54,104 nucleotides of DNA from Prevotella sp. Its GTDB lineage: Bacteria; Bacteroidota; Bacteroidia; Bacteroidales; Bacteroidaceae. Shown here in pieces: positions 15,936 through 27,414 of this stretch. The stretch covers positions 1 through 54,104 of the forward strand of contig JAFUUL010000054.1 of assembly GCA_017483805.1 (NCBI GenBank), given 5' to 3'. Position numbers and translations under genes: made by a program. The stretch's first letter is position 1; each line of letters begins with the position of its first letter. The notes under the pieces are model-generated. The model was not told where the DNA came from. It ran no database searches and saw only the letters and a list, made by a program, of their open reading frames with translations.

Positions 15936-16949
15936 TCACTTGGAGTCGAGATACTGGCGCAGATCTTCCTGCAACTGGAGGAAACGGGGACTCTGCTGGT
16001 AGCCGGCATTCTTCTTGAGCATAGCCTTGACATCCTGCTGCGAGTTCTCGTAGCACGACATCTCGTTGCGCTTTTGGGTCTTGTGGGCACGGGAGTGGTA
16101 TATCTCGTTCTGCCGCTCCTGACGGAGTTGGTTGCACACCTTGGTGAGGATGGGGGCCACGACGGTATCGAAGAGATGGTGGCCCTGCATGTAGAGATAG
16201 GTGGTCTGCGGCGTGACACCCAGGCGGCGTATGTCTTCCTTCACCTGAAGGTAGGACTCCTTGTTGTCGGGGAAAAGACGCTGCAGTTCGCGCACCTTGG
16301 CCTGCACCTTGCGGCGGATGTTGGCGATGGACACTTCGGGATTCTGGATGGTGAAGCCGCCGGGGTCGGTGACGCGGTTGAAGTCGGAGAGCGAGAAGCG
16401 GCCGTGGCGGCCGGTGCGATAGGCCCACACCGACCAGACGAAGAGGGGGAAGCAGGCCTCGCTGTAGTGCTGGAAATAGTCTACGAGGTCGATGATGCGA
16501 TGGTCGTTGAGGGTGACGGCCACGCAGACATCGTGGAGCGAGGGGGCATAGCACTGGAAGTTCTCGATGGCATAGACATAGGTGTGGAACACATAGGGGC
16601 TCTGCAGCACCTTGCGCGACTGCTCGGTGGCCCCCTGCATGAGATAGTCGTAGTCAGCATCGACGCAGGCTATCATGTCGACGCCAAGCCTGTCGTCGCC
16701 ACCGGTGCCTTCGCGCAGGAAACTCATGAGCACCGACTTCTTGCCGCGGCTGAGGTTGCCCTTCGAGGGGAGCATGACCTCGAAGTAGCGATGCTCGTCC
16801 TCGAAGCGGCTGAGCACGGTGCGCCAGAAGTAGATGTCGTCGTAACTCTCCACGTAGGCCACGATGCGCCGACGGGCATTCTTGCCCTTCAGCACATTGG
16901 CCGCCTCGATGTAGCGGCTGTTGAGGTTGTCCGTCAGCCTGTTAGCCAT
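15936..16949 (-). CDS. DUF4435 (TOPRIM-like) protein, partner of the upstream ATPase
   Basis: This 337-residue soluble protein has the two acidic signatures of a TOPRIM fold: Glu34 in VAYVESYDD and the DxDxD run Asp97-Asp99-Asp101 in ACVDADYDYL. DUF4435 proteins pair with ABC-type ATPases. In the PARIS anti-phage system the DUF4435 partner (AriB) is a TOPRIM nuclease released by the ATPase (AriA). The start lies 21 bases after the ATPase stop, so the two form an operon. The central region (residues about 125-250) keeps other DUF4435-like blocks (YAIENFQCYAPSLHDV). The ATPase here is shorter than I would expect for AriA, so a housekeeping role, for example OLD-like DNA or tRNA handling, cannot be excluded. 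Confidence 0.78.
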   Translation of the reverse strand: MANRLTDNLNSRYIEAANVLKGKNARRRIVAYVESYDDIYFWRTVLSRFEDEHRYFEVMLPSKGNLSRGKKSVLMSFLREGTGGDDRLGVDMIACVDADYDYLMQGATEQSRKVLQSPYVFHTYVYAIENFQCYAPSLHDVCVAVTLNDHRIIDLVDYFQHYSEACFPLFVWSVWAYRTGRHGRFSLSDFNRVTDPGGFTIQNPEVSIANIRRKVQAKVRELQRLFPDNKESYLQVKEDIRRLGVTPQTTYLYMQGHHLFDTVVAPILTKVCNQLRQERQNEIYHSRAHKTQKRNEMSCYENSQQDVKAMLKKNAGYQQSPRFLQLQEDLRQYLDSK

Positions 16950-16953
16950 TATT

Positions 16954-16988
16954 CACTTATCACTCATCACTTATTTATCACTCTTCAC
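16954..16988. repeat. Array with 7-base period (5 units) at the ATPase/DUF4435 junction
   Basis: Units read CACTTAT, CACTCAT, CACTTAT, TTATCAC, TCTTCAC on the plus strand. On the coding (minus) strand each carries TGA or TAA. The array encodes the last residues of the ATPase (VKSDK) and its stop codon. Confidence 0.6.
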
Positions 16989-17810
16989 TTCAATCTCGCT
17001 GACCTCAGTCACATGGTCGGCCCAGCCGTTCATGACGACGGCAGGACTGTGGGTGGTGAGGATGATCTGCACATGGGGGTTCAACTCGACGATGAGGTCG
17101 ATGAGTTGCTTCTGCCACTCGATGTGGAGGCTCACCTCGGGCTCGTCCATGAAGAGCACGTAGGGCTGGTCGTCCTCGACGAGGACGGTGAGCAGAATGG
17201 CCAGCATCTGCTTCTCGCCGCTGCTGAGTTGATAGGGCACGAGCATCTCGCCTATCTGGGTGAAGCGTATCTCGTTCTCAGTGCGTACGATGCGCTTGCC
17301 GGTCTCGGCGAAGAGGCTGTCCACCATGTCCTGGAAGCGCAGTTTCTTCTGCGACAACTGCTGGGCGGCGTCGGCGTGGCCCTGCTGCAACTGCTCGATG
17401 ATGCGGTTGCCGATGTTGACCTGATAGTCCAGATATTTGCGCTGCAGGTGGTAGAGTTGGAAGTCGAGGGCCGACGAAATGCGGGAGTCGACATGGGCCA
17501 TGGTGTCGAGGTCGAGCACGGGCGAGTCGAGCGAGCGGATGAGGTCGAAGCGCACGTGGGTGGCATCCTCTGGCGAGGCCGTCACGTGGACGCCCTTCAG
17601 CAGGTGGTTGATCAGGTCGCCATTGGTGTTGACGCTCTTGACCACCTTATTCAATATAGTGCTCTTGCCCACGCCGTTGATGCCACTGAGGATGTTGACA
17701 TGCGGGTCCAGTTCCCACACGATGTGCTTCTTGCCGCTCCAGAGCGAGTCGATCTCGATCTTCTGGATGAAGTCGGCAAACTTGACATTGGCCGTTTTTC
17801 CGTTCTGCAT
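16971..17810 (-). CDS. AAA/ABC-type ATPase, PARIS AriA-like or OLD-like
   Basis: The 279-residue protein has a Walker A motif GINGVGKST (residues 43-51), an ABC signature-like LSSGEKQML (about 195-203), Walker B with catalytic Glu VLFMDEPEVSLHIEW (about 216-230) and a switch His in ILTTHSPAVV (about 250). This is the SMC/Rad50-like 'AAA_21/AAA_15' group found in OLD, RloC and PARIS systems. The insert between Walker A and the signature is short (about 145 residues), so there is no long coiled coil. It is upstream of and in the same operon as a DUF4435/TOPRIM gene, which argues for a two-component sensor-effector unit. Its C-terminal end is formed by a repeat array. The trigger and target are unknown. 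Confidence 0.8.
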   Translation of the reverse strand: MQNGKTANVKFADFIQKIEIDSLWSGKKHIVWELDPHVNILSGINGVGKSTILNKVVKSVNTNGDLINHLLKGVHVTASPEDATHVRFDLIRSLDSPVLDLDTMAHVDSRISSALDFQLYHLQRKYLDYQVNIGNRIIEQLQQGHADAAQQLSQKKLRFQDMVDSLFAETGKRIVRTENEIRFTQIGEMLVPYQLSSGEKQMLAILLTVLVEDDQPYVLFMDEPEVSLHIEWQKQLIDLIVELNPHVQIILTTHSPAVVMNGWADHVTEVSEIEVKSDK

Positions 17811-17904: not shown

Positions 17905-17931
17905 ATACCAAATTGTTGGTATGGGAATACC
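17905..17931. promoter_or_regulatory. Palindromic operator-like site upstream of the LuxR-type gene
   Basis: ATACCAAATTGTTGGTAT (17905-17922) fits ATACC-N8-GGTAT. The right half-site also forms a second palindrome, GGTATGGGAATACC (17918-17931). The centre of the first lies 60.5 bases upstream of the inner edge of the -7 element of the gene at 17994. Matching sites lie 61.5 bases upstream of the same point in two sulfur operon promoters (24605-24622 and 27397-27414). Confidence 0.65.
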
Positions 17932-17942
17932 AAGAACGTGCG

Positions 17943-17974
17943 ATTGCCCGATTCGCGCTTTTGCAGTACCTTTG
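17943..17974 (+). promoter_or_regulatory. Promoter of the LuxR-type regulator gene
   Basis: ATTG (17943-17946), then 20 bases, then TACCTTTG (17967-17974). The -7 matches TAnnTTTG and the -33 keeps TTG. The 5' untranslated part would be about 13 bases. The cysK promoter at 24552-24583 has the same two elements and the same spacing. Confidence 0.7.
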
Positions 17975-17993
17975 CCGAAAAATCAGAGCAAAC

Positions 17994-18635
17994 ATGGGTA
18001 ACTACATCATAGCCGACAACCAGGAACTGACCAGTTTTGCACTGGAGGGCCTGCTGAAGACGAACGAGCAGAACCGCGTGCTGAGGGCCACCAACAAGGC
18101 CGAACTGCTGGCTCTGCTGCAGAAGCACAGGCAGGCCGTCGTGATACTGGACTACACGCTGTTCGACTTCACCGATGCCGACAGCCTGCTGATACTGAGC
18201 GAACGCTTCGCTATGGCCTCGTGGGTGCTGCTCAGCGACGAGTTGACAGAGAGTTTCCTGCGCAAGGTCATCTATGCCTCCCATGCCTTCAGCGTGGTGT
18301 TCAAGGACCTGCCGCTGAAGGCTGTCCGCGATGCCATCGACTTTGCCGCAGGGGGGCGCCGCTATGTGTGCCAGCGGGCCACGGAGATGATTCTGGCCCA
18401 ACAGGAGGAAGAGGCCAAGTCGCCCGTGCTGACCACCACCGAGATAGAGATCGTGAAGGCCATCGCCCAGGGCAAGACCACGAAGGACATTGCCGCCGAA
18501 CGGTTCCTGAGCGTGCACACCGTGAACACCCACCGCAAGAACATCTTCCGCAAACTGGGGGTCAACACAGCCCACGAAGCCATCAAGTATGCCTTTCGTG
18601 CGGGCTGGGTCGACCCGAGTGAATTCTATATTTAA
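17994..18635 (+). CDS. LuxR/NarL-type response regulator next to the sulfur operons
   Basis: The 213-residue protein starts at ATG 17994 (MGNYIIADNQE); an open frame extends 43 codons further upstream but runs through the promoter, so that start is rejected. Residues 1-125 fit a receiver domain: Asp8 in the beta1 loop, Asp53 in VVILDYT as phospho-acceptor, Ser81 in WVLLSDE and Lys104 in VVFKDLP. Residues about 147-207 are a LuxR-type helix-turn-helix (LTTTEIEIVKAIAQGKTTKDIAAE...VHTVNTHRKNIFRKLGV). No sensor kinase is adjacent. The gene is convergent with the sulfur operon (its stop abuts the metY-like stop). Its promoter shares an operator-like palindrome with both sulfur operons, so it is the obvious candidate to bind them and itself. 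That regulatory role is inferred. Confidence 0.85.
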   Translation: MGNYIIADNQELTSFALEGLLKTNEQNRVLRATNKAELLALLQKHRQAVVILDYTLFDFTDADSLLILSERFAMASWVLLSDELTESFLRKVIYASHAFSVVFKDLPLKAVRDAIDFAAGGRRYVCQRATEMILAQQEEEAKSPVLTTTEIEIVKAIAQGKTTKDIAAERFLSVHTVNTHRKNIFRKLGVNTAHEAIKYAFRAGWVDPSEFYI

Positions 18636-19865
18636 CTATAAACTGCTAGAAATGTCCGCCAGCAGATCCTCAGGGGCCTCGAGGCCTATGCTGAGGCGCA
18701 CCGTCGTGTCGGCCACGCCCATGGCCTGCCGCTGCTCGTCGGTGAAGAGGCCGAAGATGGTGGAGGCGGGATGGATGGCCAGCGACTTGCGGTCGAAGAG
18801 GTTGGTGGCACGGCGGATGACCTGCAGACGGTCGATGAAGGCAAAGGCGGCCTCCTTAGATGACAGGTCGATGGTGAAGACGGCACCGGGCAATGGGCCG
18901 AACTGCGCCTCCGACAGGGCATGGAAGGGATTGTCCTCAAGGCCCGTATAGTTGACCCGCTGGATGCCCTCCAACTGCTGGCACTGACGAGCCAGCCAGA
19001 GCGTGGTCTCGGCCTGACGGCGGAAGCGCAGGTCGAGCGTATCGAGACCGAGGGTCTCCATATAGGCCACTTGGGGAGTCATGAGTGCGCCCAGATTGGT
19101 CACCAGTTCGGTTTTCACACGGGCCGTGAAGGCCATCTTCTTCCCCACCCGCTTGGCCCGGGCCTGCAGCACGGGCGACGGATGTTGGCTCCAGTCGAAG
19201 GTGCCATAGTCCACGAGCAGTCCACCCAGGCCAGTGCCACCTCCGGAGATATACTTCGTGCTGCTGACCACCTCGATGTCGACCCCCAGGTCCTTGGCCC
19301 GGAAGGCCGAGAAGGGCACGATGGTCGTGTCGGCAATGAGGGGCACGCCCTTGGCACGGGCCAAGGAGGACAGGGCACGGATGTCGGCCACGAAGAGTTG
19401 CGGATTGGTGATGATCTCGAAGAACAGGGCCGCCGTGCGGTCGTCGATCAGGGTCTCCACCTCTTCCGGATGGGTGAAGTCGGCAAAGCGAGCCTCAATG
19501 CCCAGCGAGCCCAGGGTGTCGCGGATGAGCGACACCGAGTTGCCGAAGAGGTGCTTCGAAGCCACGATGTTCAGGCCGGCGGCACTGACAGCCGTCAGCG
19601 CATAGTGGATGGCAGCCATGCCTGTATTGAGGGCGGTGACGCTCACGGCCCCCGTCAACTGTCGCACGCGCTCCTCCAGATAAGTGACGGTGGGGTTGGC
19701 GATGCGGGCATACGACGGAGCCATCGAGCGGCCGCAGAAGGCATCGCTCATGGCCTTGGCCGACGGAAACTCAAATGCCGCTGTATAGTACACCGGCATT
19801 GAGAGTGATCCGTAGGCATCAGGCTTCTGATACTTCGTTGTAAGAATCTTTGTTTCGTATTCCAT
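18636..19865 (-). CDS. Cys/Met metabolism PLP enzyme, MetY-like (O-acetylhomoserine sulfhydrylase type)
   Basis: This 409-residue enzyme belongs to the gamma-family of PLP transsulfuration enzymes. The Schiff-base lysine is Lys204 in SSTKYISGGG, preceded by IADTT (PLP-binding Asp) and by NPTVTYLEERVRQLTGA near residue 60. MetY makes homocysteine from O-acetylhomoserine and a sulfide source; related enzymes are cystathionine gamma-synthase and gamma-lyase. MetY use is favoured because a sulfur-carrier, E1 and JAMM set lies in the same locus, as in the Wolinella HcySDF-MetY pathway. The ATG at 19865 is chosen over an in-frame GTG just before it. It follows the desulfurase gene by 15 bases and is the last gene of the operon. 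Exact substrate choice cannot be read from sequence. Confidence 0.8.
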   Translation of the reverse strand: MEYETKILTTKYQKPDAYGSLSMPVYYTAAFEFPSAKAMSDAFCGRSMAPSYARIANPTVTYLEERVRQLTGAVSVTALNTGMAAIHYALTAVSAAGLNIVASKHLFGNSVSLIRDTLGSLGIEARFADFTHPEEVETLIDDRTAALFFEIITNPQLFVADIRALSSLARAKGVPLIADTTIVPFSAFRAKDLGVDIEVVSSTKYISGGGTGLGGLLVDYGTFDWSQHPSPVLQARAKRVGKKMAFTARVKTELVTNLGALMTPQVAYMETLGLDTLDLRFRRQAETTLWLARQCQQLEGIQRVNYTGLEDNPFHALSEAQFGPLPGAVFTIDLSSKEAAFAFIDRLQVIRRATNLFDRKSLAIHPASTIFGLFTDEQRQAMGVADTTVRLSIGLEAPEDLLADISSSL

Positions 19866-19880
19866 CACAATGATTAATGT

Positions 19881-21380
19881 TCAACGTCCGACAATCTTTC
19901 GCACGGCGATGACCAGCCGGTCCACGTCCTCGCGGGTGTTGTAGAGGGCGAAGGTGGGGCGCACGCTCATCTCGTAGCCCAAGGCTCGCAAGGCCGGCTG
20001 GGCACAATGGTGACCGGCACGCACGGCGATGCCCTCCTTGTCGAGCAGGGTGCCCACCTCAGGCACGGGTATGCCGTCGAGGACGAAGGACACGACGCTG
20101 ACGCGCTGCTTGGGATTGCCGATGAGCGTCAGACCGGGAATCTGGGCCAACTGCTCGCGGGCATACTCGGTGAGCCGGTGCTCATGGGCCTCGATGTTGC
20201 GGATGCCCAGATGGCTCACGTAGTCGAGGGCTGCACCCAGTCCGATGGCATCGGCCACATTGGGCGTGCCGGCCTCGAAGCGGGCAGGCGGCACGTTGTA
20301 CTCCGTGCGCTCGATGGTCACATCCTTGATCATATTGCCACCACCCTGCCAGGGCTGCATCTTGTCGAGTATGTCCTTGCGGCCATAGACCACGCCGATG
20401 CCGTTGGGGCCGTAGATCTTGTGGCCGGAGAAGACGAAGAAGTCGGCCCCGAGTGCCTGCACATCCACGGGGGTGTGGGCTATCGACTGTGCACCGTCAA
20501 TGAGCACGGGGATCTGGTGCAAGTGGGCGATGTCGATGATGCGCTGCACATCGTTGATGGTGCCGAAGGTGTTGTTCACATGGCCCACCGAGACGAAGCG
20601 GGTGCGGGGTGTGATGAGCCGCTCGAACTCAGAGAGCACCAGGTCGCCGTTCTTGTCCGTCGGGATGGCCTTGAGGGTGCACCCCTTCTCCTGGCAGACG
20701 CGCTGCCAGGGCACGATGTTGGCATGGTGGTCCAGTTCGCTGACTATCACCTCGTCGCCCGGCGTGAGATACTGCCTGCCGTAGGTCTGCGCCACGAGGT
20801 TGATGCCCTCTGTGGTGCCACGCACGAAGATAATCTCCTCGCTGGAGGCGGCATTGATGAAGCGCTGCACTTTTTCGCGCGCAGCCTCATAGGCATCGGT
20901 GGCACGGGCAGCCAGCGTATGGGCCCCACGGTGGATGTTCGAGTTGTAGTTGCGATAGTAGTCCGAGATCTTGTCGATCACCTGATTGGGCTTCTGCGTC
21001 GTGGCACCATTGTCCAGCCAGACGAGGTCGTGGCCGTTCACCTTCTGCTGCAAGACGGGGAAATCCTTCTTGATCTGCTCGCTGTTCAGGGTGTCCACCT
21101 CCTCGTAGTGCAGAGAGCGCAGTTTCTCCGTCTCAGGGATGCCGATGCCGAAGCCGTTGTCAGCAGGGACGATGGTTTCGCCTCCCTGATGCGATGGTAT
21201 CGCATCATACAGAACCTGGAGTGCTGAGAGGTCGATGGCTTCGTCGAGAGTCTGGTCAGGCACTGCGGCCTGGCGCTCTTGCTGCCACTCCTCCGGGCAG
21301 TACTTTTGTGCCACCTGCCGCAACAGTTCGAAGCCGGGATCCTCGATGCCGTAGCCGTTAATATTCTGTAATTCAATCAT
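19881..21380 (-). CDS. SufS-like cysteine desulfurase with N-terminal extension (predicted encapsulin cargo)
   Basis: Residues about 104-499 form a complete group II (SufS-like) cysteine desulfurase: PLP lysine Lys321 in SGHKIYGPNG, catalytic Cys459 in RAGHHCAQP, and LDHHANIVPW. The enzyme removes sulfur from L-cysteine as a persulfide, leaving alanine. SufS starts near the DFPVLQQKVNG block; here about 100 extra residues precede it, low in recognisable fold and rich in Gln, Glu, Pro and Gly. Family 2 encapsulin cargo desulfurases carry such extensions, which direct them into the shell. The shell gene lies immediately upstream (52-base gap). Together these make encapsulation very likely. An ordinary Suf role is less likely because no sufBCD genes are visible. 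Confidence 0.88.
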   Translation of the reverse strand: MIELQNINGYGIEDPGFELLRQVAQKYCPEEWQQERQAAVPDQTLDEAIDLSALQVLYDAIPSHQGGETIVPADNGFGIGIPETEKLRSLHYEEVDTLNSEQIKKDFPVLQQKVNGHDLVWLDNGATTQKPNQVIDKISDYYRNYNSNIHRGAHTLAARATDAYEAAREKVQRFINAASSEEIIFVRGTTEGINLVAQTYGRQYLTPGDEVIVSELDHHANIVPWQRVCQEKGCTLKAIPTDKNGDLVLSEFERLITPRTRFVSVGHVNNTFGTINDVQRIIDIAHLHQIPVLIDGAQSIAHTPVDVQALGADFFVFSGHKIYGPNGIGVVYGRKDILDKMQPWQGGGNMIKDVTIERTEYNVPPARFEAGTPNVADAIGLGAALDYVSHLGIRNIEAHEHRLTEYAREQLAQIPGLTLIGNPKQRVSVVSFVLDGIPVPEVGTLLDKEGIAVRAGHHCAQPALRALGYEMSVRPTFALYNTREDVDRLVIAVRKIVGR

Positions 21381-21395
21381 ACGCTAATTCTGTTT

Positions 21396-21432
21396 ACTCC
21401 CCTCCCCAAATGGGGAGGGGCTGGGGGTAGGT
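21396..21432. repeat. GC-rich palindromic repeat, copy A (intergenic)
   Basis: The arms CTCCCC/GGGGAG flank AAAT or a few more bases, followed by a G run (CTGGGGGTAGG). Read on the minus strand it matches the two other copies in this window (32978-33011 and 48073-48101). It fills most of the gap between the encapsulin shell gene and the desulfurase gene and abuts the shell gene stop codon. Confidence 0.65.
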
Positions 21433-22860
21433 CTATTTCCTGTCCTGATAGTCGTGATAGTAGCCCACCTCGACATTCTCCAGCACGGCGATGGCATCGT
21501 CGGTCAGGGCAGCCAGGCTGAAGTACTTCGTCAGCAGATAAGAGGCCACGCCAAACTTGTCGAGTCCCATCAGGCGGGCCGACAGGCTCGGGGCTATCTC
21601 GCCGGGTATGCCGCTCTGGTGCAGGCCCACCACGCCCTGGTTCTGCTCGCCGGTGCGCACCAAGATGATCTTTGTCGTGCCGACGCCGCGGCCCGTCAGA
21701 TACTGGCCTTCCACCTCTACCTTGTCAGAGGGGATGAGGGGCACGCCACGCCACAGGATGACCTTCGTGCCGAAGAGGTCGGTGGTCACAGGGGGCACGC
21801 CACGCCAGGTGCACTCACGCTCGAAGGCAGCGATGGCACGCGGATGAGCAATGAAGAAGGCAGGCTCCTTCCACACCAGCGAGAGCAGTTCGTCCAGATC
21901 GTCGGGCGTCGGGGCTCCATAGCGTGTGGTGATGCGATAGGCGGGATTGGCCGAAGCCAGCAGACCGAACTTGCGATTGTTGATCAGTTCCCACTCCTGG
22001 CGCTCCTTGATGCTCTCGATGGAGAGTCGCAGTTGCTCCTCCAGTTGGTTGTAGGGATTGTTGTACAGATCGCTGACGCGGGTATGCACCCTGACCACCG
22101 TCTGCAGCGTGTTGAGCGAGTACTCCGTGGGGTTCTCCTCGTAGTCGATGTAGGTCTCGGGGATGATGTTGTCCTCCTCATGTCCTGATACCAGGTCGAT
22201 GTGCTTCTCGCCGTGGTCGTTGACGGTAGCCTTCAGTCGCAGTTGCTTGTCCACAGCCTTGTTGAAGGTCTCGCGGAAGTCGGGCACCTCCTTGATGAAG
22301 CGCTCCAGTTCCTTCAGTTTCAGTCCCAGGAAGATGGTAGGTGTGACGGCACGCACCGATACGGTCGACTCGGCATCGTCCAGCAGGTCGGTCTCGCCGA
22401 AGTACTCGCCGTCGCCCAGCAGGGCAATGCGCAGTTCCTCGCCGTGAGGCCCCTTGCTGATCACCTCGGCCTGGCCGCTGGCCACGATGAAGAATTTCTG
22501 CTTGTCCTTGCCCTCCTCCACGAAGAGTTCGCCCAGTTCCACCTCCTGCGTCTCAAACGAGCGGGCCAGCCGGTTCACGATGTCATCGTCGAAGTCGGAG
22601 AAGAGGGGGATGGTCTTCAGGCTCTTGGCCGAGAACGAAGGCACGCCGTCCAGGAACTGGATGGGCAGCCGCTCGCTCTTGCGTAGTTCCACCTTCGTGC
22701 GGTTCACGCGGAAGGTGCCTCCGCTCACCTGCACCCAGGGCAGGAGTTTCAACAGTAGTCTCGGGGTGATGCTGCCCATCTGCGGGGCAGTCTTGGTGGT
22801 GGTCGCCAGTCTTCTGGCGGTGGCAGTGGTCACACTGCGCTGAAGATTTGAATCTGCCAT
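21433..22860 (-). CDS. Family 2B encapsulin shell protein (HK97 fold with cNMP-binding-like domain)
   Basis: The 475-residue protein has three parts: an N-terminal arm (residues 1-75, basic start, LLLKLLPWVQVSGGTFRVNR), a cyclic-nucleotide-binding-like domain (about 80-195, with FIVASGQAEVIS and GEYFGETDLL), and an HK97-like shell region (about 225-475, with IDYEENPTEYSLNTLQTVVRVHTRVSDLYNNPYNQLEEQLR and PDDLDELLSLVWKEPAFFIAHPRAIAAFERE). This order is characteristic of family 2B encapsulins, which self-assemble into protein cages. The cNMP domain keeps Glu156 of the FGE motif, but the Arg that grips the phosphate in CRP aligns with Ser165, so classical cAMP binding is doubtful. Its cargo is almost certainly the desulfurase encoded next. 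A CRP-type regulator is excluded because no DNA-binding helix-turn-helix is present. Confidence 0.88.
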   Translation of the reverse strand: MADSNLQRSVTTATARRLATTTKTAPQMGSITPRLLLKLLPWVQVSGGTFRVNRTKVELRKSERLPIQFLDGVPSFSAKSLKTIPLFSDFDDDIVNRLARSFETQEVELGELFVEEGKDKQKFFIVASGQAEVISKGPHGEELRIALLGDGEYFGETDLLDDAESTVSVRAVTPTIFLGLKLKELERFIKEVPDFRETFNKAVDKQLRLKATVNDHGEKHIDLVSGHEEDNIIPETYIDYEENPTEYSLNTLQTVVRVHTRVSDLYNNPYNQLEEQLRLSIESIKERQEWELINNRKFGLLASANPAYRITTRYGAPTPDDLDELLSLVWKEPAFFIAHPRAIAAFERECTWRGVPPVTTDLFGTKVILWRGVPLIPSDKVEVEGQYLTGRGVGTTKIILVRTGEQNQGVVGLHQSGIPGEIAPSLSARLMGLDKFGVASYLLTKYFSLAALTDDAIAVLENVEVGYYHDYQDRK

Positions 22861-22871
22861 AGTTGTTGTGT

Positions 22872-23096
22872 CTATTTTTTAATTATTACTCTATGTGTTG
22901 TTCCCTCCACATGCTCCACACTCAGCACGTTGTAGCCCTGCTCCACGGCGTTGCGTGGCACATTGTCCAGCGGCTCGCCCTCGCTGAGCAGCACTTCCAG
23001 CGTGTCGCCCTCGTTGAGTTTCGACAGTTCGATTTTTGTCTTGACGAAGGTCATCGGGCAGTGTTCCTTCGTGATGTCCAGTGTCTTAGTTGCCAT
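22872..23096 (-). CDS. TusA/SirA-like sulfur relay protein (variant CPxT motif)
   Basis: This 74-residue protein has the TusA fold pattern: beta strand, Cys13-Pro14 at the start of helix 1 (HCPMTFVKTK), and LNEGDTLEVLLSEGEPLDNVP. Canonical TusA has CPxP; here the second Pro is Thr16, so this is a divergent subgroup. TusA proteins accept persulfide sulfur from cysteine desulfurases and hand it to DsrE-type partners. Both a desulfurase and a DsrE-like gene are in the operon, which fits a relay. It lies 11 bases before the encapsulin start and 19 after the DsrE-like stop. Confidence 0.8.
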   Translation of the reverse strand: MATKTLDITKEHCPMTFVKTKIELSKLNEGDTLEVLLSEGEPLDNVPRNAVEQGYNVLSVEHVEGTTHRVIIKK

Positions 23097-23099
23097 ATT

Positions 23100-23120
23100 T
23101 TTTAACTCTTAATTCTTAAA
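23100..23120. repeat. Array with 7-base period (3 units)
   Basis: TTTTAAC, TCTTAAT, TCTTAAA on the plus strand, located at the DsrE-like/TusA-like junction. It overlaps the last codons of the DsrE-like gene, whose stop is TAA inside the array. Confidence 0.55.
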
Positions 23121-23589
23121 TAAACAAAGTCTGTCCGCCCTCGCTCAGTTGCAGGAACGAGGCCACGCCCAGCACGTCCTTCACCTCCGGGATGAAGTCC
23201 TCCCGCTTCAGGCCCAGCACGTGCATGGCCATCTCGCAGGCATAGAGGTTCACGCCCAGCACCTTGGCAGCCTCCACCAGTTCCTCCAGCGTGGCCACAT
23301 TGTTCTTGCGCATCAGTGAGCGGAATATCTTCGGCCCCAGACCGCAGAAGTTGAAGCGCGACGTAGGCGTCGCGTGCAGTCCGCCCATCATGAAGCCGAA
23401 TATCTTGGTCAGCCACGTGCCGCCCACAAAGGCGCGGCCCTTCTTCTGCTTGATGGCATCCAGGCCCCAGAAGGTGAAGAAGATGTTGACCTCATAACCC
23501 ACTGCGGCAGCCCCCGTAGCCAGGGTGAAGACTGCCGTCAACTTGTCGAACTCGCCACTGAAGGCGATGATGCTCAGTTTCTTACTCAT
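23116..23589 (-). CDS. DsrE-like sulfur-handling protein
   Basis: The 157-residue product starts at ATG 23589 ([21 protein letters not shown]) and overlaps the end of cysK by 8 bases, so translation is probably coupled. A longer open frame exists upstream but lies inside cysK. The fold pattern matches the DsrE/DsrF/DsrH-like group once called 'peroxiredoxin family' (COG2210): [26 protein letters not shown], then [20 protein letters not shown]. Two conserved cysteines, in NFCGLG and LYACEMAM, could carry sulfane sulfur. Members occur beside TusA-like and rhodanese genes, as here. One segment (IFGFMMGGL) is hydrophobic, but a membrane span is not clear. Confidence 0.75.
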
Positions 23590-24520
23590 GGCTGTACATT
23601 TTAGTTGAAAGATACCTCTCGCCCGTGTCCGGCAGCAGCACCACCACCGTCTTTCCCTCGTTCTCGGGCCTACGGGCCACCTTGATGGCGGCAGCCACGG
23701 CAGCGCCGCTCGACACACCCGCCAGCACGCCCTCGCGACTGGCCAGCAGACGGCCCACGCCGTAGGCCTCCTCGTCCTTTATCTTGATAATCTCGTCGTA
23801 GACGTCGGTGTCCAGCACTTTCGGCACGAAACCCGCACCTATGCCCTGCAACTTGTGCGGGCCGGGCCTTCCGCCCGACAGCACTGCCGAGCCCATGGGC
23901 TCCACGCCTATGATCTTCACCCGCGGGTTGCTCTCGCGCAGCACCTGGCCCACGCCAGTGATAGTGCCGCCCGTACCTATGCCCGCTACGAAGAAGTCCA
24001 CTTCGCCGTCGGTGTCCTCCCATATCTCCTCCGCCGTGGTGCGGCGGTGCACCTCGGGGTTGGCCAGGTTCTCAAACTGCTGCGGGATGAAAGCACGCCC
24101 ATCCGACTCGCGGGCCAGTTCGTGCGCCTTGCGTATGGCTCCCGCCATGCCCTCATGGGCAGGCGTCAGCACCAGCGTAGCCCCCAGGGCCTGCAGCAGT
24201 GTGCGCCGCTCCAGTGACATGGCGTCGGGCATGGTCAGCACCAGCCTGTAGCCGCGAATGGCAGCCACCAGAGCCAGTCCGATGCCCGTGTTGCCGCTGG
24301 TGGGCTCGATGATGGTCGTGTCGGGGTCCAGCAGTCCCTGGCGTTCCGCTTCATCGAGCATGGCCAGGGCCGTGCGGTCTTTCACGCTGCGCCCGGGATT
24401 CAGCATCTCCAGTTTGGCCAGCACGCGGGCCTTCAGCCCCAGTTCGCGCTCGGTGCGAGAAAGTTCCAGCAGCGGCGTGTGGCCCACAAGTTCAATCAGG
24501 TTTTTTGCAATCTGCGACAT
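23582..24520 (-). CDS. cysK: Cysteine synthase (O-acetylserine sulfhydrylase family)
   Basis: The 312-residue enzyme has the PLP lysine Lys47 in [11 protein letters not shown], the substrate loop [11 protein letters not shown] (73-83), [10 protein letters not shown] and the C-terminal [18 protein letters not shown], all typical of CysK. It makes cysteine from O-acetylserine and sulfide. Because a sulfur-carrier set is nearby, use of a protein thiocarboxylate in place of sulfide, as by mycobacterial CysM, is conceivable, but the sequence looks CysK-like. It is the first gene of the second sulfur operon, with a promoter 32 bases upstream and an operator-like palindrome upstream of that. The stop codon overlaps the DsrE-like start. 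Confidence 0.9.
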
Positions 24521-24551
24521 AACTTTACAGCATTAGTTAAATAATCCGCTG

Positions 24552-24583
24552 CAAAGGTACGCCCTTTTCCCTATACCCACAAT
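24552..24583 (-). promoter_or_regulatory. Promoter of the cysK-dsrE-tusA-encapsulin-desulfurase-metY operon
   Basis: On the minus strand, ATTG (24580-24583), 20 bases, TACCTTTG (24552-24559). The elements and spacing are the same as in the LuxR-type gene promoter. The untranslated leader is about 25 bases. Confidence 0.7.
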
Positions 24584-24626
24584 CACCCATCGTGGGTATT
24601 TAGCATACCTAACCTTTGGTATACCC
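24573..24626. promoter_or_regulatory. Operator-like site and extra half-sites upstream of cysK
   Basis: The main site ATACCTAACCTTTGGTAT (24605-24622) fits ATACC-N8-GGTAT and overlaps the symporter stop codon. Its centre is 61.5 bases upstream of the inner edge of the -7 element. Further half-sites lie closer to the promoter: ATACC at 24573 and GGTAT at 24595 form an inverted repeat ATACCCAC/GTGGGTAT that spans the -33 element. GGTATACC (24618-24625) adds another. Binding of more than one dimer is possible. Confidence 0.6.
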
Positions 24627-25814
24627 GTCTTCCGCCGCATCCACGATGGCGCAGACGCACGAGTCGCTCCACACGTTCTCTGCCGTCTCCACCATATCTA
24701 TAATAGTATAGACAGGCAGAATCATGCCCATGATGGCCACCGGAGCCCCGATGCCCGACATGAGTGAGAGCGTCAGGAAGTAGCAGCCCATGGGAACGCC
24801 CGCATTGCCCACGGCAGAGACCACCGAGATGAGCAGCCACAAAGCAACGGTGGGCAGTGTGATGGCCGTACCGCCATTCTGCATGACAAAAAGCGAGGTG
24901 ACCAGAATGAAGGCAGCACAGCCATTCATGTTGATGGTGGTGCAAATGGGCAGCACAAAGCGGGCCACCTCCCTGCGCGCGCCCAGTCGGCGCTCCGCCG
25001 TATCCATCGTCACGGGCAGCGTGGCAGCACTGCTCTTGGTGAAGAGGGCCATCAGCACGGCAGGCATCATGCGGCCCAGCACGCGGACGGGATTCAGTCC
25101 CCTGGCCAACAGGAACAGCGGCAACACCACAAAGAACTGTACCACATTGCCGCCCAGCACCACCAGCACATAGCGGCCCATGGAGTCGGCCACGACACCG
25201 GCACTCACCTGTGCCGACAGTTGTGCCGAGAAAGCCACGATGCCCAGGGGCAGGGTCCAGATGAGCCAGCGGATGAGCAGGTGGAGCAGGTCCTGCAGTC
25301 CCTGCAGTACCTTTACCACGGCAGTCTTGCCGTCGCCGTCGGGCAGTTTGGACAGTCCGATGCCTGTGGCAAAAGCCAGCAACAGAAGAGACAGCACGTT
25401 GCCCTCGAGAAACGGGCGTACCACGTTGCCGGGAACTATGCTGAGCAAATGGTCATAGTAGGTCAGCCCGGGTGCTTCCATAGCCGTTGCCTGCTGACCG
25501 ATTGCATCAGCCGACAGGTTGCCCGGAGCAACGAGCCAGAAAAGTAAGGCTCCCACCGAGGCAGCCGCCGCGGTGGTGAGAAGGGTGTAAGCCAGCGTAC
25601 GTCCGAAGATGCGCCCCGAGCCCGCTGAACCGAAAGTAGCAAAAGTGGTAACTACCGCCAACACAATGGTGGGCACGGCCAGCAGTTGGAACAACCGCGT
25701 GTAGACTGTCGCCACAAAGTCCGCCAGCCCGTCCAGCCATTCCAGCCCCATCATTCCCAGACAGGCACCCGCCACGAGTGCCCCCACCCATACGGCAGTT
25801 CGCTTCATCTCCAT
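24609..25814 (-). CDS. DAACS-family (dicarboxylate/amino acid:cation) symporter
   Basis: The 401-residue membrane protein has about eight hydrophobic segments and the family signatures SSAATLPVT (hairpin HP1), TINMNGCAAF (helix 7) and GNAGVPMG (HP2). This family takes up aspartate, glutamate, dicarboxylates, serine or threonine, or cystine (TcyP) with sodium or protons. Its place between a JAMM protease gene and cysK makes cystine or another sulfur amino acid the best guess, but the substrate cannot be read from sequence. It starts 22 bases after the JAMM gene stop and is the last gene of the first sulfur operon. Its stop codon lies inside the operator-like site for the next operon. Confidence 0.85.
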   Translation of the reverse strand: MEMKRTAVWVGALVAGACLGMMGLEWLDGLADFVATVYTRLFQLLAVPTIVLAVVTTFATFGSAGSGRIFGRTLAYTLLTTAAAASVGALLFWLVAPGNLSADAIGQQATAMEAPGLTYYDHLLSIVPGNVVRPFLEGNVLSLLLLAFATGIGLSKLPDGDGKTAVVKVLQGLQDLLHLLIRWLIWTLPLGIVAFSAQLSAQVSAGVVADSMGRYVLVVLGGNVVQFFVVLPLFLLARGLNPVRVLGRMMPAVLMALFTKSSAATLPVTMDTAERRLGARREVARFVLPICTTINMNGCAAFILVTSLFVMQNGGTAITLPTVALWLLISVVSAVGNAGVPMGCYFLTLSLMSGIGAPVAIMGMILPVYTIIDMVETAENVWSDSCVCAIVDAAEDGYTKG

Positions 25815-25836
25815 TTCCTCTGCGGTCTGCCCTCAC

Positions 25837-26226
25837 TTACAGGTGCTCTTCCCGGTCAACCACCTCGCCGCCGAGGATGCGGAAAGAATTGAGGTGGACG
25901 CCCTCATGCAGGGAGAGGATAGCATAGCGGATGGTGGGGTCGTTGGCCAGACGCAGGTCCTCCTGAGAGGGGCGCGAGGGCGAAGCGGGATGGGAGTGCC
26001 AGTTGGCGAGTATCTTCAGCCCCCTGCTCCGGGCATACTTGAGGGCGGCAAACTGGTCCTTGGGAGCGAAGGAGAAATGCTCGGGCGAGTGGTCGATGTT
26101 CTCCATCGGATAGTTCTCGGTGACCTGGCCGTCGGCTGTTCCCAACAGATAGCCGCAGGTCTCGCAGGGTGCATCCTGCCGGGCCTGGGCTATCAGTTCT
26201 TCTATGACATTTTGTGGTATGTTCAT
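25837..26226 (-). CDS. JAMM/MPN+ metalloprotease (HcyD/Mec+-like)
   Basis: The 129-residue protein is a bare JAMM domain with every catalytic residue: Glu22 in CETCGYLLG, and His77, His79, Ser87, Asp90 in HSHPASPSRPSQED (zinc ligands and the Ser/Asp pair). Small bacterial JAMM proteins of this type (Mec+ in mycobacteria, HcyD in Wolinella) cut after the Gly-Gly of MoaD/ThiS-like carriers. They either expose the C terminus for activation or release the amino acid made on it. The carrier in this operon ends in two residues after the glycines, which gives a clear candidate substrate. The ATG at 26226 (MNIPQNV) is preferred; an upstream TTG lies within a repeat array. Confidence 0.85.
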   Translation of the reverse strand: MNIPQNVIEELIAQARQDAPCETCGYLLGTADGQVTENYPMENIDHSPEHFSFAPKDQFAALKYARSRGLKILANWHSHPASPSRPSQEDLRLANDPTIRYAILSLHEGVHLNSFRILGGEVVDREEHL

Positions 26227-26253
26227 CTCAATCTTCAATCTTCATTTTTCAAT
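26226..26253. repeat. Array with 7-base period (4 units)
   Basis: TCTCAAT, CTTCAAT, CTTCATT, TTTCAAT on the plus strand, filling the junction between the E1-like gene and the JAMM gene. The E1-like stop codon lies inside it. Confidence 0.6.
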
Positions 26254-27055
26254 GCTTCAAGTCGCAGGCGGCCTGCTCGTAGTCTATCAGGTGGTCGATG
26301 GTGGGATGGGTGCCACAGACGGCGCACGTGTCGCGATGGCGAACGGGCACGGTGTGGAACTGCATGGTCTTGGCATCGAAGGTGAGCAGGCGGTCGGTAA
26401 GCAACTGGCCCACGCCGGTGAAGTACTTCAGGGTCTCGGCGGCCTGGATGGTGCCCAGCATGCCGGCAATGGCTCCCAGCACGCCGGCCTGAGAGCACGT
26501 GGGCACGGCACCCACGGGGGGCGGCTCCTTGAACATGCAGCGATAGCAGGCGGTGCCGGGCAGATGGGTGAAGGTCTGGCCACGGAAGCGCAGGATGCCA
26601 CCGTGGGAGAAGGGCTTGCCGGCCATGACGCAGGCATCGTTGATGAGGAACTTGACGGGGAAGTTGTCGGTGCCGTCGACGATGAAGTCGTACTCGCGGA
26701 TGATGTCGAGGGCATTGCTCGAATCGAGGAACTCGTAGTAGGTGTCTACCTGGACATCGGGGTTGATGGCCTGTATCTTCTCACGGGCGCTCTCCACCTT
26801 GGGCACACCTACGTCCTTGGTGAAATGGATGACCTGCCGCTGCAGGTTGCTCAGGTCGACCACGTCGGCATCGACGATACCAATGCGACCTATGCCTGCG
26901 GCGGCCAGATAGAGTGAAACGGGGGCTCCCAGTCCGCCTGCGCCCACCACGAGCACCCGGGCCTGGAGTATCTTCTCCTGTCCCTCCACGCCCACGTCCT
27001 GCAGCAGGATGTGGCGCGAGTAGCGTTGTATCTGTTCTTCGGTGAAATCGTACAT
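26249..27055 (-). CDS. ThiF/MoeB/HesA-type E1-like adenylyltransferase (sulfur-carrier activating)
   Basis: The 268-residue enzyme has the ATP-binding GAGGLG motif (residues 38-43) and RYSRHILLQDVG near the start. It also has the Asp127-Asp130 loop (DGTDNF) and two zinc-binding CxxC pairs (Cys170/Cys173 in CYRC and Cys244/Cys247 in CAVC). Cys187 in PTCSQAG is the likely thiol that holds the carrier or sulfur. There is no C-terminal rhodanese domain, so sulfur must come from another protein, perhaps the TusA-like product. It adenylates the Gly-Gly end of a MoaD/ThiS-like protein so that a thiocarboxylate can form. No thiamine or molybdopterin genes are nearby, so a dedicated carrier partner (27087-27299) is more likely. 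Confidence 0.88.
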   Translation of the reverse strand: MYDFTEEQIQRYSRHILLQDVGVEGQEKILQARVLVVGAGGLGAPVSLYLAAAGIGRIGIVDADVVDLSNLQRQVIHFTKDVGVPKVESAREKIQAINPDVQVDTYYEFLDSSNALDIIREYDFIVDGTDNFPVKFLINDACVMAGKPFSHGGILRFRGQTFTHLPGTACYRCMFKEPPPVGAVPTCSQAGVLGAIAGMLGTIQAAETLKYFTGVGQLLTDRLLTFDAKTMQFHTVPVRHRDTCAVCGTHPTIDHLIDYEQAACDLKH

Positions 27056-27058
27056 TTC

Positions 27059-27086
27059 TCTTAACTCTTAATTCTTAACTCTTAAT
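27059..27086. repeat. Array with 7-base period (4 units)
   Basis: TCTTAAC, TCTTAAT, TCTTAAC, TCTTAAT on the plus strand. It fills the gap between the sulfur-carrier stop and the E1-like start. On the coding strand the units read GTTAAGA/ATTAAGA, with TAA in each; the AAGAG formed at the unit borders could serve as a ribosome binding site for the E1-like gene. Confidence 0.65.
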
Positions 27087-27299
27087 TCAATATGCTCCTC
27101 CTCCCATGAAGTAGAGGAAGTCCACATGGTCGCCTTCCTGTATCTGAATGCTATCCCAGTCTTCGCGCTCGGCGAACTCCTCGTTCACCTGCACGCTGAC
27201 CATCTCGGGGTTTTCCACCAGTAGTTGCTCGATGAGTGTGGTCACCGTGAGAGGCAGGCTGACTTCCCTGGCCTCGTCGTTCACATAGATCTTTGCCAT
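27087..27299 (-). CDS. MoaD/ThiS-like sulfur carrier with C-terminal extension (HcyS/CysO-like)
   Basis: The 70-residue protein shows the ubiquitin-like pattern of MoaD/ThiS: MAKIYVNDEARE, VTTLIEQLL, VSVQVNEEF, and the terminal VDFLYFMGGGAY. Carriers of this fold end in Gly-Gly, which is adenylated and turned into a thiocarboxylate. Here Ala-Tyr follows the glycines (stop codon TGA checked at 27087-27089), so the end must be trimmed first. A complete JAMM protease and an E1-like enzyme follow in the operon. This matches the logic of the Wolinella HcyS-HcyD-HcyF system, which feeds MetY. It is the first gene of the operon, with a -7 element 45 bases upstream. Confidence 0.85.
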   Translation of the reverse strand: MAKIYVNDEAREVSLPLTVTTLIEQLLVENPEMVSVQVNEEFAEREDWDSIQIQEGDHVDFLYFMGGGAY

Positions 27300-27343
27300 A
27301 GTCGTTGTTTCTGTTTTGTTTTGTCGATAAATATTTCCGGCGG

Positions 27344-27351
27344 CAAAGGTA
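27344..27351 (-). promoter_or_regulatory. -7 element of the sulfur-carrier operon promoter
   Basis: The minus strand reads TACCTTTG, identical to the -7 of the cysK and LuxR-type promoters. The -33 position (27372-27375) reads ATGT, without TTG. A weak -33 fits a promoter that needs an activator; the operator-like palindrome lies 61.5 bases (centre) upstream of the -7 inner edge. Confidence 0.6.
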
Positions 27352-27355
27352 CAAC

Positions 27356-27389
27356 AAAAACCGCTGTCGTGACATCACACAACAGCGGT
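27356..27389 (-). terminator. Rho-independent terminator after the FKBP gene
   Basis: On the minus strand, ACCGCTGT pairs with ACAGCGGT (27382-27389 with 27360-27367), with an inner GTG/CAC pairing, followed by TTTTTG. It ends transcription from the glyS-FKBP unit and separates it from the sulfur-carrier operon, whose promoter overlaps it. Confidence 0.7.
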
Positions 27390-27396
27390 AATCCAT

Positions 27397-27414
27397 ATAC
27401 CTAAGGTTTGGTAT
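27397..27414. promoter_or_regulatory. Operator-like palindrome upstream of the sulfur-carrier operon
   Basis: ATACCTAAGGTTTGGTAT fits ATACC-N8-GGTAT and differs from the cysK site (24605-24622) at only the two central bases. Its distance to the -7 element is identical in both promoters. Confidence 0.7.

Follow-up and report, generated by a model that had tools for sequence, protein, structure and literature searches.

Contig JAFUUL010000054.1 of the Prevotella sp. assembly GCA_017483805.1, analysed from position 1 to 54,104 (54,104 nucleotides, referred to as the window), carries a gene for a LuxR-type regulator and, on the opposite strand, two sets of sulfur genes. The palindrome ATACC-N8-GGTAT lies at a nearly constant distance upstream of the promoter in front of the regulator gene, of cysK and of the gene for a ThiS-type sulfur carrier (Table 1). 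The cysK promoter probably serves cysK, dsrE, tusA, a family 2B encapsulin gene, a SufS-type desulfurase gene and a Cys/Met pyridoxal phosphate (PLP) enzyme gene, and the thiS promoter probably serves thiS, thiF/moeB, a JAB peptidase gene and an SDF symporter gene. We infer that transcription from the cysK promoter extends to the genes beyond tusA, the whole set forming one transcript.

The 18-mer occurs exactly three times in the window, as the initial annotation had stated, and both its coordinates and its distances were reproduced. From the centre of the palindrome to the last G of the −7 element TACCTTTG there are 60.5 bases for the LuxR-type gene, 61.5 for cysK and 61.5 for the ThiS-type carrier, and the two operon palindromes are indeed identical apart from their two central bases. 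With up to one mismatch allowed, four matches are present in the window against 0.69 expected, and none of 100 shuffles gave four. Each palindrome is the distal half of a tandem element, in which a second, imperfect palindrome lies downstream and is followed by TAnnTTTG. A matrix built from 106 sites of other genomes, with the window sites excluded, placed the three at the top of the window with scores of 65.8, 60.7 and 46.2, the next place scoring −8.4 and the best in reversed sequence −23.3.

Table 1. Regulatory elements and genes of the sulfur region in the window, with the basis of each assignment.
Feature	Position	Strand	Basis
Distal palindrome before LuxR-type gene	17905..17922	+	motif search, matrix scan
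Proximal imperfect palindrome ATACC-N8-GCGAT before LuxR-type gene, running into TTG (−33)	17927..17944	+	sequence; consensus of aligned sites
TACCTTTG, −7 element of LuxR-type gene	17967..17974	+	sequence
LuxR/NarL-type regulator, 213 residues (P0001), GerE and divergent receiver domain	17994..18635	+	profiles, alignment
Cys/Met PLP enzyme, nearest to O-acetylhomoserine sulfhydrylases, below the cut-off of that model	18636..19868	−	profiles
SufS-type cysteine desulfurase with N-terminal extension	19881..21380	−	catalytic domain 120–489 of 499 residues
Encapsulin shell protein, family 2B (cNMP-binding domain)	21433..22860	−	NF041163 571 bits, cut-off 400; PF00027 56.9 bits
TusA-type sulfurtransferase, 74 residues	22872..23096	−	sequence/profile analysis
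DsrE/DsrE2-like sulfur carrier, start overlapping the end of cysK	23116..23589	−	Pfam above cut-off; SulfCarrDsrE2 68 bits, cut-off 210
cysK, cysteine synthase A	23582..24520	−	TIGR01139 above cut-off
TACCTTTG, −7 element of cysK operon	24552..24559	−	sequence
Proximal imperfect palindrome ATACC-N8-GTGAT before cysK	24582..24599	−	sequence; consensus of aligned sites
Distal palindrome before cysK	24605..24622	−	motif search, matrix scan
SDF-family Na+:dicarboxylate/amino acid symporter, end overlapping the cysK palindrome	24609..25814	−	profile
Prok-JAB (JAMM) peptidase, Mec+-like	25837..26238	−	profile
ThiF/MoeB-type adenylyltransferase	26249..27055	−	profiles
ThiS-type sulfur carrier, 70 residues	27087..27299	−	profiles
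TACCTTTG, −7 element of thiS operon	27344..27351	−	sequence
Weak proximal palindrome TTACC-N8-GTGAT before thiS, overlapping terminator-like hairpin	27374..27391	−	sequence
Distal palindrome before thiS-thiF-JAB genes	27397..27414	−	motif search, matrix scan

The source genome (3.63 Mb in 199 contigs, 92% complete) contains seven exact copies of the 18-mer against three of the reversed pattern, and 69 against 57 with one mismatch, so that the palindrome without its promoter spacing was rejected as too weak a search term. When TACC-N8-GGTA had to be followed by TAnnTTTG after 45–46 bases, seven places were found against one for ten other spacings together, indicating that the spacing, and not the palindrome alone, makes the difference. 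The seven precede the LuxR, cysK and thiS genes, metY (O-acetylhomoserine sulfhydrylase; contig C69), a pstB-like gene (C197), a TonB receptor gene (C21:20019) and an M16 peptidase gene (C15). An eighth site (C21:8305), recovered with a longer pattern that includes the second palindrome at no more than three mismatches, precedes a gene for a secreted-looking protein whose first 380 residues gave no Pfam match. Among the exact 18-mers, C197:2245, before the pstB-like gene, is a fourth copy placed before a promoter and has the 61.5 spacing; C21:20049 stands 38.5 bases before TAnnTTTG and belongs to the element at C21:20019 as its proximal half; and C64:5431 has neither the distal nor the proximal spacing. 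At C64:1890-1907 a perfect ATACC-N8-GGTAT lies 38.5 bases before TACCTTTG, with TTG in place and no obvious distal palindrome, and is possibly a single-site promoter.

The genus was surveyed in 80 genomes, out of 100 covered by an earlier motif scan. The spaced distal pattern was found at 109 places, compared with 7 for the reversed pattern and 36 for ten shifted spacings together. None of the 20 annotated places among these 36 precedes a reference gene; L327, L328 and L339 of this control are without an open reading frame, the last because its contig ends there. The sites taken further are the 113 distinct sequences in the loci examined, a few of which come from genomes beyond the 80. The genes that follow them, labelled by BLASTP against 14 reference proteins (E 1e-5) with sulfur genes of other kinds falling among the "others", are cysK (28), metY (22), thiS-thiF (10), dsrE (8), LuxR (6, the window's own among them), pstB-like (6), metC-like (1) and others (32). 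Sulfur genes follow 69 of the 113 sites. Pfam profiling covered 20 of the 32 other genes. Two had no match; apart from those of genome G071 described below, the rest encode TonB receptors, SusD proteins, YtkA-like lipoproteins, an M16 peptidase, a PstS-like binding protein, a hybrid-cluster (prismane) protein, an OsmC protein, an esterase and a short-chain dehydrogenase.

A PstB-like ATPase gene carries a regulon site in six loci (L007 on G000:C197, L016, L083, L121, L132 and L138); it and the LuxR gene are arranged divergently in L083 and L132 and are near neighbours in L121, and a PstS-like binding protein gene has a site in genome G030 (L131); the ATPase may belong to a sulfur rather than a phosphate transporter. 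Secreted-looking proteins of about 300–317 residues follow sites in L092, L095, L113 and L128 (proteins of about 310 residues) and in L287, L288 and L292, and several of them share a stretch like (K/R)APRFA(R/K); one (L092) had no Pfam match at E 0.01. That they bind a sulfur compound would be a guess. In genome G071 (L122, L124 and L125 among the loci) sites lie before genes for an ATP-grasp protein, a radical SAM protein, a porphobilinogen deaminase/methylase/HemD fusion and an aminotransferase; the tetrapyrrole genes among them would fit a supply of sirohaem for sulfite reduction.

Conservation was also examined in loci chosen by their match to the LuxR protein and not by the motif, namely the best 80 of 365 relatives (1.30 Mb), titled Prevotella, Xylanibacter, Prevotellaceae, Bacteroidaceae or Bacteroidales. 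With a matrix that here included the window sites, and with some of the loci being the same contigs as training genomes (e.g. L163 and L224), 78 sites scored at least 5 against none in the reversed sequences, and at a threshold of −10 there were 95 against 4. Counting by spacing, with no matrix involved, gave 68 palindromes 45–46 bases before TAnnTTTG, whereas the remaining 98 spacings in the range of 20 to 119 bases together account for 25. The motif is thus not common at other distances; its being common away from promoters is what the initial annotation had named as contrary to its proposal. Conservation upstream of orthologous operons, the lack of which it had likewise named as contrary, was evident as well, a site lying at most 300 bases upstream of 17 of 19 thiS, 15 of 19 thiF, 16 of 18 cysK and 14 of 22 dsrE genes. 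Within the same distance sites were found for 2 of 22 encapsulin genes and 1 of 7 symporter genes, and for none of the metC-like (0/29), desulfurase (0/26) and JAB (0/19) genes. Over a longer range, 4.5 kb upstream, a site was found for 18 of the 20 encapsulin genes that had enough sequence in front of them. The fetched stretch around the LuxR gene contains metY, a metC-like gene or cysK in 69 of the 80 loci, and in the Prevotella sp. khp7 locus (L210) the regulator, the encapsulin cluster and the sites occur together. Xylanibacter ruminicola genomes also carry the regulator.

Alignment of the 113 sites on the −7 element revealed conserved columns outside the search pattern, reading A A T R (C/A) C, eight free bases and G (G/C) (G/T) A T T (G/T). 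They constitute a second palindrome of consensus AATRCC-N8-GNKAT with the same geometry as the distal one (column frequencies T 0.96 and C 0.90, then G 0.89, A 0.97, T 0.96 and T 0.96). The initial annotation had missed this half of each element, and the finding is conserved and larger than could be seen from the window. The centre of the proximal palindrome lies 38.5 bases before the end of the −7 element and 23 or 22 bp from the distal one, and the palindrome runs into a TTG, 20 bases before the TA, the −33 element of Bacteroidota promoters. The difference between the 60.5 and 61.5 spacings is one of linker length, and the proximal palindrome is fixed relative to the promoter. In several relatives, divergent elements between the thiS and dsrE (or cysK) operons share one distal palindrome. 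A minor class of 14 palindromes lies 48–50 bases before TAnnTTTG in the 80 named loci; examples with longer spacing (such as G032:C32:43037 and G088:C50:27057) are divergent promoters sharing a palindrome, or are without a proximal element, and the class may reflect a different mode of control.

Of the three elements in the window, the thiS promoter has the weakest proximal palindrome, located within a terminator-like hairpin, and its −33 element is weak, with TGT at that distance. The hairpin (27360-27389, minus strand) has 12 pairs followed by a T-rich stretch. Located downstream of the distal palindrome and upstream of the −7 element, it overlaps the proximal palindrome and may serve the upstream gene as a terminator, or be an attenuator. 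In the region as a whole, terminator-like hairpins are no more numerous than in shuffles.

The regulator carries a C-terminal GerE/LuxR helix-turn-helix domain (PF00196, E 1.3e-16, 60.4 bits, cut-off 23.5), and the alignment of its orthologues matches VraR structures over nearly the full length (E 2.8e-23). Across 24 aligned orthologues D8, the phospho-acceptor aspartate D53 and the conserved lysine K104 are invariant, and the recognition segment HTxxTHRKNIFRK is almost so. No kinase is present among the 13 profiled proteins between 15936 and 27299.

Presence of the regulator and presence of the sites tend to go together across the genus. Genomes were called LuxR-positive below E 1e-45, a cut-off set after a gap had been seen in the best match per genome (2.0e-49 against 9.5e-17), and an exact-spacing site was present in 42 of 50 LuxR-positive and 5 of 30 LuxR-negative genomes (Fisher p 2.8e-9); for genomes at least 90% complete the counts were 23 of 26 and 3 of 17. 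A further set comprised 75 genomes at least 90% complete, 6 of the genus and 69 of other genera or families of the order, with a cut-off of 1e-40. Its 46 LuxR-positive members are all those of that completeness found, the source genome left out, and its 29 LuxR-negative members are those of that completeness among 40 listed without a match (222 more were not listed), and hence no random draw. Sites were present in 30 of the 46 and 2 of the 29 (p 2.9e-7). Of the two negative exceptions, G233 is without a second palindrome and probably a chance match, and G221 has two sites and a full-length match of 1.6e-39, just past the cut-off; counted as LuxR-positive, it changes the figures to 31 of 47 and 1 of 28. 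In 30 loci read outside the genus, sites precede cysK, metY, genes for a longer CysK-like enzyme, a Cys/Met-type enzyme and an MnmA-type tRNA thiolase, and several genes for secreted proteins, and some lie within 3 kb of the LuxR gene. A midpoint-rooted tree of 102 proteins, with long branches, sets the orthologues, including that of G221, apart from five weak matches (G004, G053, G060, G061 and G078). In 295 genomes of the class no match outside the order reached 1e-40; those present (1e-38 to 1e-35) may be ordinary NarL-type proteins.

The co-occurrence, the gene neighbourhood, the sites before the regulator's own gene in several genomes and the GerE domain together point to the LuxR-type protein as the reader of the sites. 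It is very probable that this orphan NarL/FixJ-type regulator of the LuxR superfamily binds the palindromes and that, in Prevotella and other Bacteroidales, a regulon of sulfur and cysteine genes is under its control. With good, though lesser, confidence we regard it as a previously undescribed master regulator of sulfur in the Bacteroidales, which would act through tandem palindromes on cysteine and homocysteine synthesis, sulfur carriers and a 2B encapsulin store and, in some lineages, on outer-membrane uptake, PstB-type transport, tRNA thiolation and tetrapyrrole genes.

The reading that competes best concerns which LuxR protein is responsible. The source genome has a second paralogue on contig C49, 46% identical to the window copy, and the two might share the sites, with the C49 copy as the main regulator and the window copy as a duplicate specialised for the encapsulin cluster. 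The tree separates the two groups, their recognition segments are nearly the same, and many genomes with metY and cysK sites (G024, G045, G016 and G076, for instance) have no copy other than one of the C49 group. In the source genome, however, the window copy is the only one of the two with a site in front of its gene, and the one that adjoins the encapsulin genes, whereas within 1.5 kb either side of the C49 copy there is neither an exact-spacing site nor a reference gene (L229). We consider this division of labour possible, though less likely than not.

As to how the LuxR-type protein would act, we propose that two dimers bind in tandem at each promoter, one on TACC-N8-GGTA at 61.5 (or 60.5) and one on the weaker palindrome at 38.5. 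The proximal dimer would touch the −33 TTG and could contact RNA polymerase, which makes activation the most likely outcome; the poor −33 element of the thiS promoter likewise favours it. The targets switched on in the window would be cysK-dsrE-tusA-encapsulin-desulfurase-Cys/Met enzyme, thiS-thiF-JAB and probably the regulator's own gene, and elsewhere in the genome metY and a few transport and surface genes. We infer binding by the LuxR-type protein, activation, and sulfur limitation as the signal. The same regulator might instead repress, or respond to surplus sulfide or cysteine for storage or detoxification. A protein on the proximal palindrome, touching the −33 TTG, could block polymerase, and encapsulin with desulfurase could conceivably store surplus sulfur; yet none of the sites extends downstream as far as the −7 element, and the thiS −33 is weak. 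In an excerpt of PMC8049743, SrpI of Synechococcus elongatus, a related encapsulin holding a cysteine desulfurase, rises under sulfur (sulfate) starvation. Repression or induction by surplus is on this evidence unlikely.

Several observations weigh against the proposed role of the LuxR-type protein. Its receiver domain (PF00072) scores 23.7 bits, below the cut-off of 30.2, and the second acidic pocket residue is missing, D8 being followed by N, K, P, R or L and not by D or E. Among the 113 sites, 32 precede genes without an evident sulfur role and two (S008 and S009) score as chance matches. In the named loci metY has a site in the 300 bases upstream in none of 42 cases, though it is a frequent target elsewhere in the genus, and the LuxR gene has one in only 5 of 79. 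The site before the LuxR gene is real in the source genome and some relatives and is not general. Eight LuxR-positive genomes of the genus lack an exact site, as do 16 of the 46 further LuxR-positive genomes, and of the 30 with one, at least two (G159 and G282) have no second palindrome and are probably chance matches. The main evidence against a sole reader comes from the five LuxR-negative genomes of the genus with an exact-spacing site, in which a profile rescan at E ≤ 1e-10 found no orthologue-like match (best 3.5e-19). The site in G061 looks like chance, and the other four look genuine: G013, G038, G040 and G046 (84, 93, 80 and 99% complete) have tandem-looking sites before, respectively, a surface-protein gene, metY and pstB, cysK, and cysK.

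These four, G046 above all, would be expected if a different transcription factor read the sites and merely co-occurred with the LuxR protein. Such a factor is improbable, given that the co-occurrence holds over several families of the order, that sites stand before the LuxR gene itself in some genomes, and that TACC-N8-GGTA is arranged like a pair of NarL heptamers with two bases between them (7-2-7). The interpretation first proposed, in which one LuxR-type activator controls itself and both operons, is supported as far as the sequences go, with control of the two operons favoured by the lines of evidence above and self-control confined to a minority of genomes, and with the second paralogue and the 32 non-sulfur sites as further caveats. 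Chance similarity of the three palindromes, which the weak bare palindrome in the genome might suggest, is virtually out of the question, as first judged: the reversed-pattern, shifted-spacing and matrix controls (the three sites scoring more than 50 units above all else in the window) and the conservation across genomes rule it out.

Divergent from the LuxR gene lies a pair of AriA/AriB-like genes (15936-17810, minus strand) encoding an AAA ATPase and a DUF4435 protein, the best PADLOC matches being AriA and AriB, the PARIS defence proteins. The pair, or one member in the stretch fetched, occurs beside cysK or metY in ten other loci, some of them from close relatives (L026, L027, L076, L079, L135, L140, L141, L294, L295 and L296). 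This repeated linkage, for which no expectation was computed, hints at a tie between the pair and the sulfur regulon.

NarL and NarP of E. coli recognise 7-2-7 sites, and the present system shares with them a GerE-type domain, inverted heptamers starting with TAC around two central bases, and upstream control of metabolism. It differs in its two tandem palindromes at a fixed 22–23 bp, in a receiver lacking one acidic residue, in its mostly sulfur targets and in the Bacteroidota TAnnTTTG promoter. Global control of cysteine and methionine genes in other bacteria is exerted by CysB, CymR and MetJ, and the window regulator belongs to an unrelated protein family. CysO-CysM-Mec+ is a route to cysteine in Mycobacterium tuberculosis. 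The window likewise has a ThiS-like carrier, a ThiF/MoeB-like enzyme, a JAB peptidase and a cysteine synthase, all of them probably under common control; unlike in that system, the synthase is of the cysK type, judged by profile, and is encoded in the adjacent operon. The NarL heptamer consensus is TACYYMT in an excerpt of PMC4886647; the regulon heptamer, TACCAHA-like, fits it in the geometry TACC-N8-GGTA and differs at positions 5 and 7.

Like other family 2 encapsulins, the window shell stands beside an N-terminally extended desulfurase among sulfur genes. The desulfurase, at 726 bits against the cargo model NF041166 (f2_encap_cargo1, cut-off 800), is a likely encapsulin cargo. The shell is of family 2B with a cNMP domain, whereas SrpI is of family 2A, and its likely regulator is NarL-type, whereas PMC8049743 lists among its references, for the SrpI plasmid, a paper on regulation by sulfur availability and CysR. 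An excerpt of a survey (PMC8346489) gives 199 family 2B operons with desulfurases in 9 phyla, so that the encapsulin/desulfurase gene pair itself is not new. The open-access literature searched held no NarL-type regulator of sulfur genes in Bacteroidales, and, on encapsulins in Prevotella and on LuxR and sulfur in these bacteria, nothing on this regulon.

In the same open-access literature we found no described regulator of cysteine or sulfur genes for the Bacteroidales; the present reading, if true, would supply one, and its binding site would be defined sharply enough for targets to be predicted in further genomes of this group. The rigid spacing of two dimers would make it a clean system for studying the action of a NarL-type protein at the unusual Bacteroidota promoter. 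It would also name a likely switch for the sulfur-linked encapsulin of rumen bacteria, so that what this compartment stores, and when, becomes testable.

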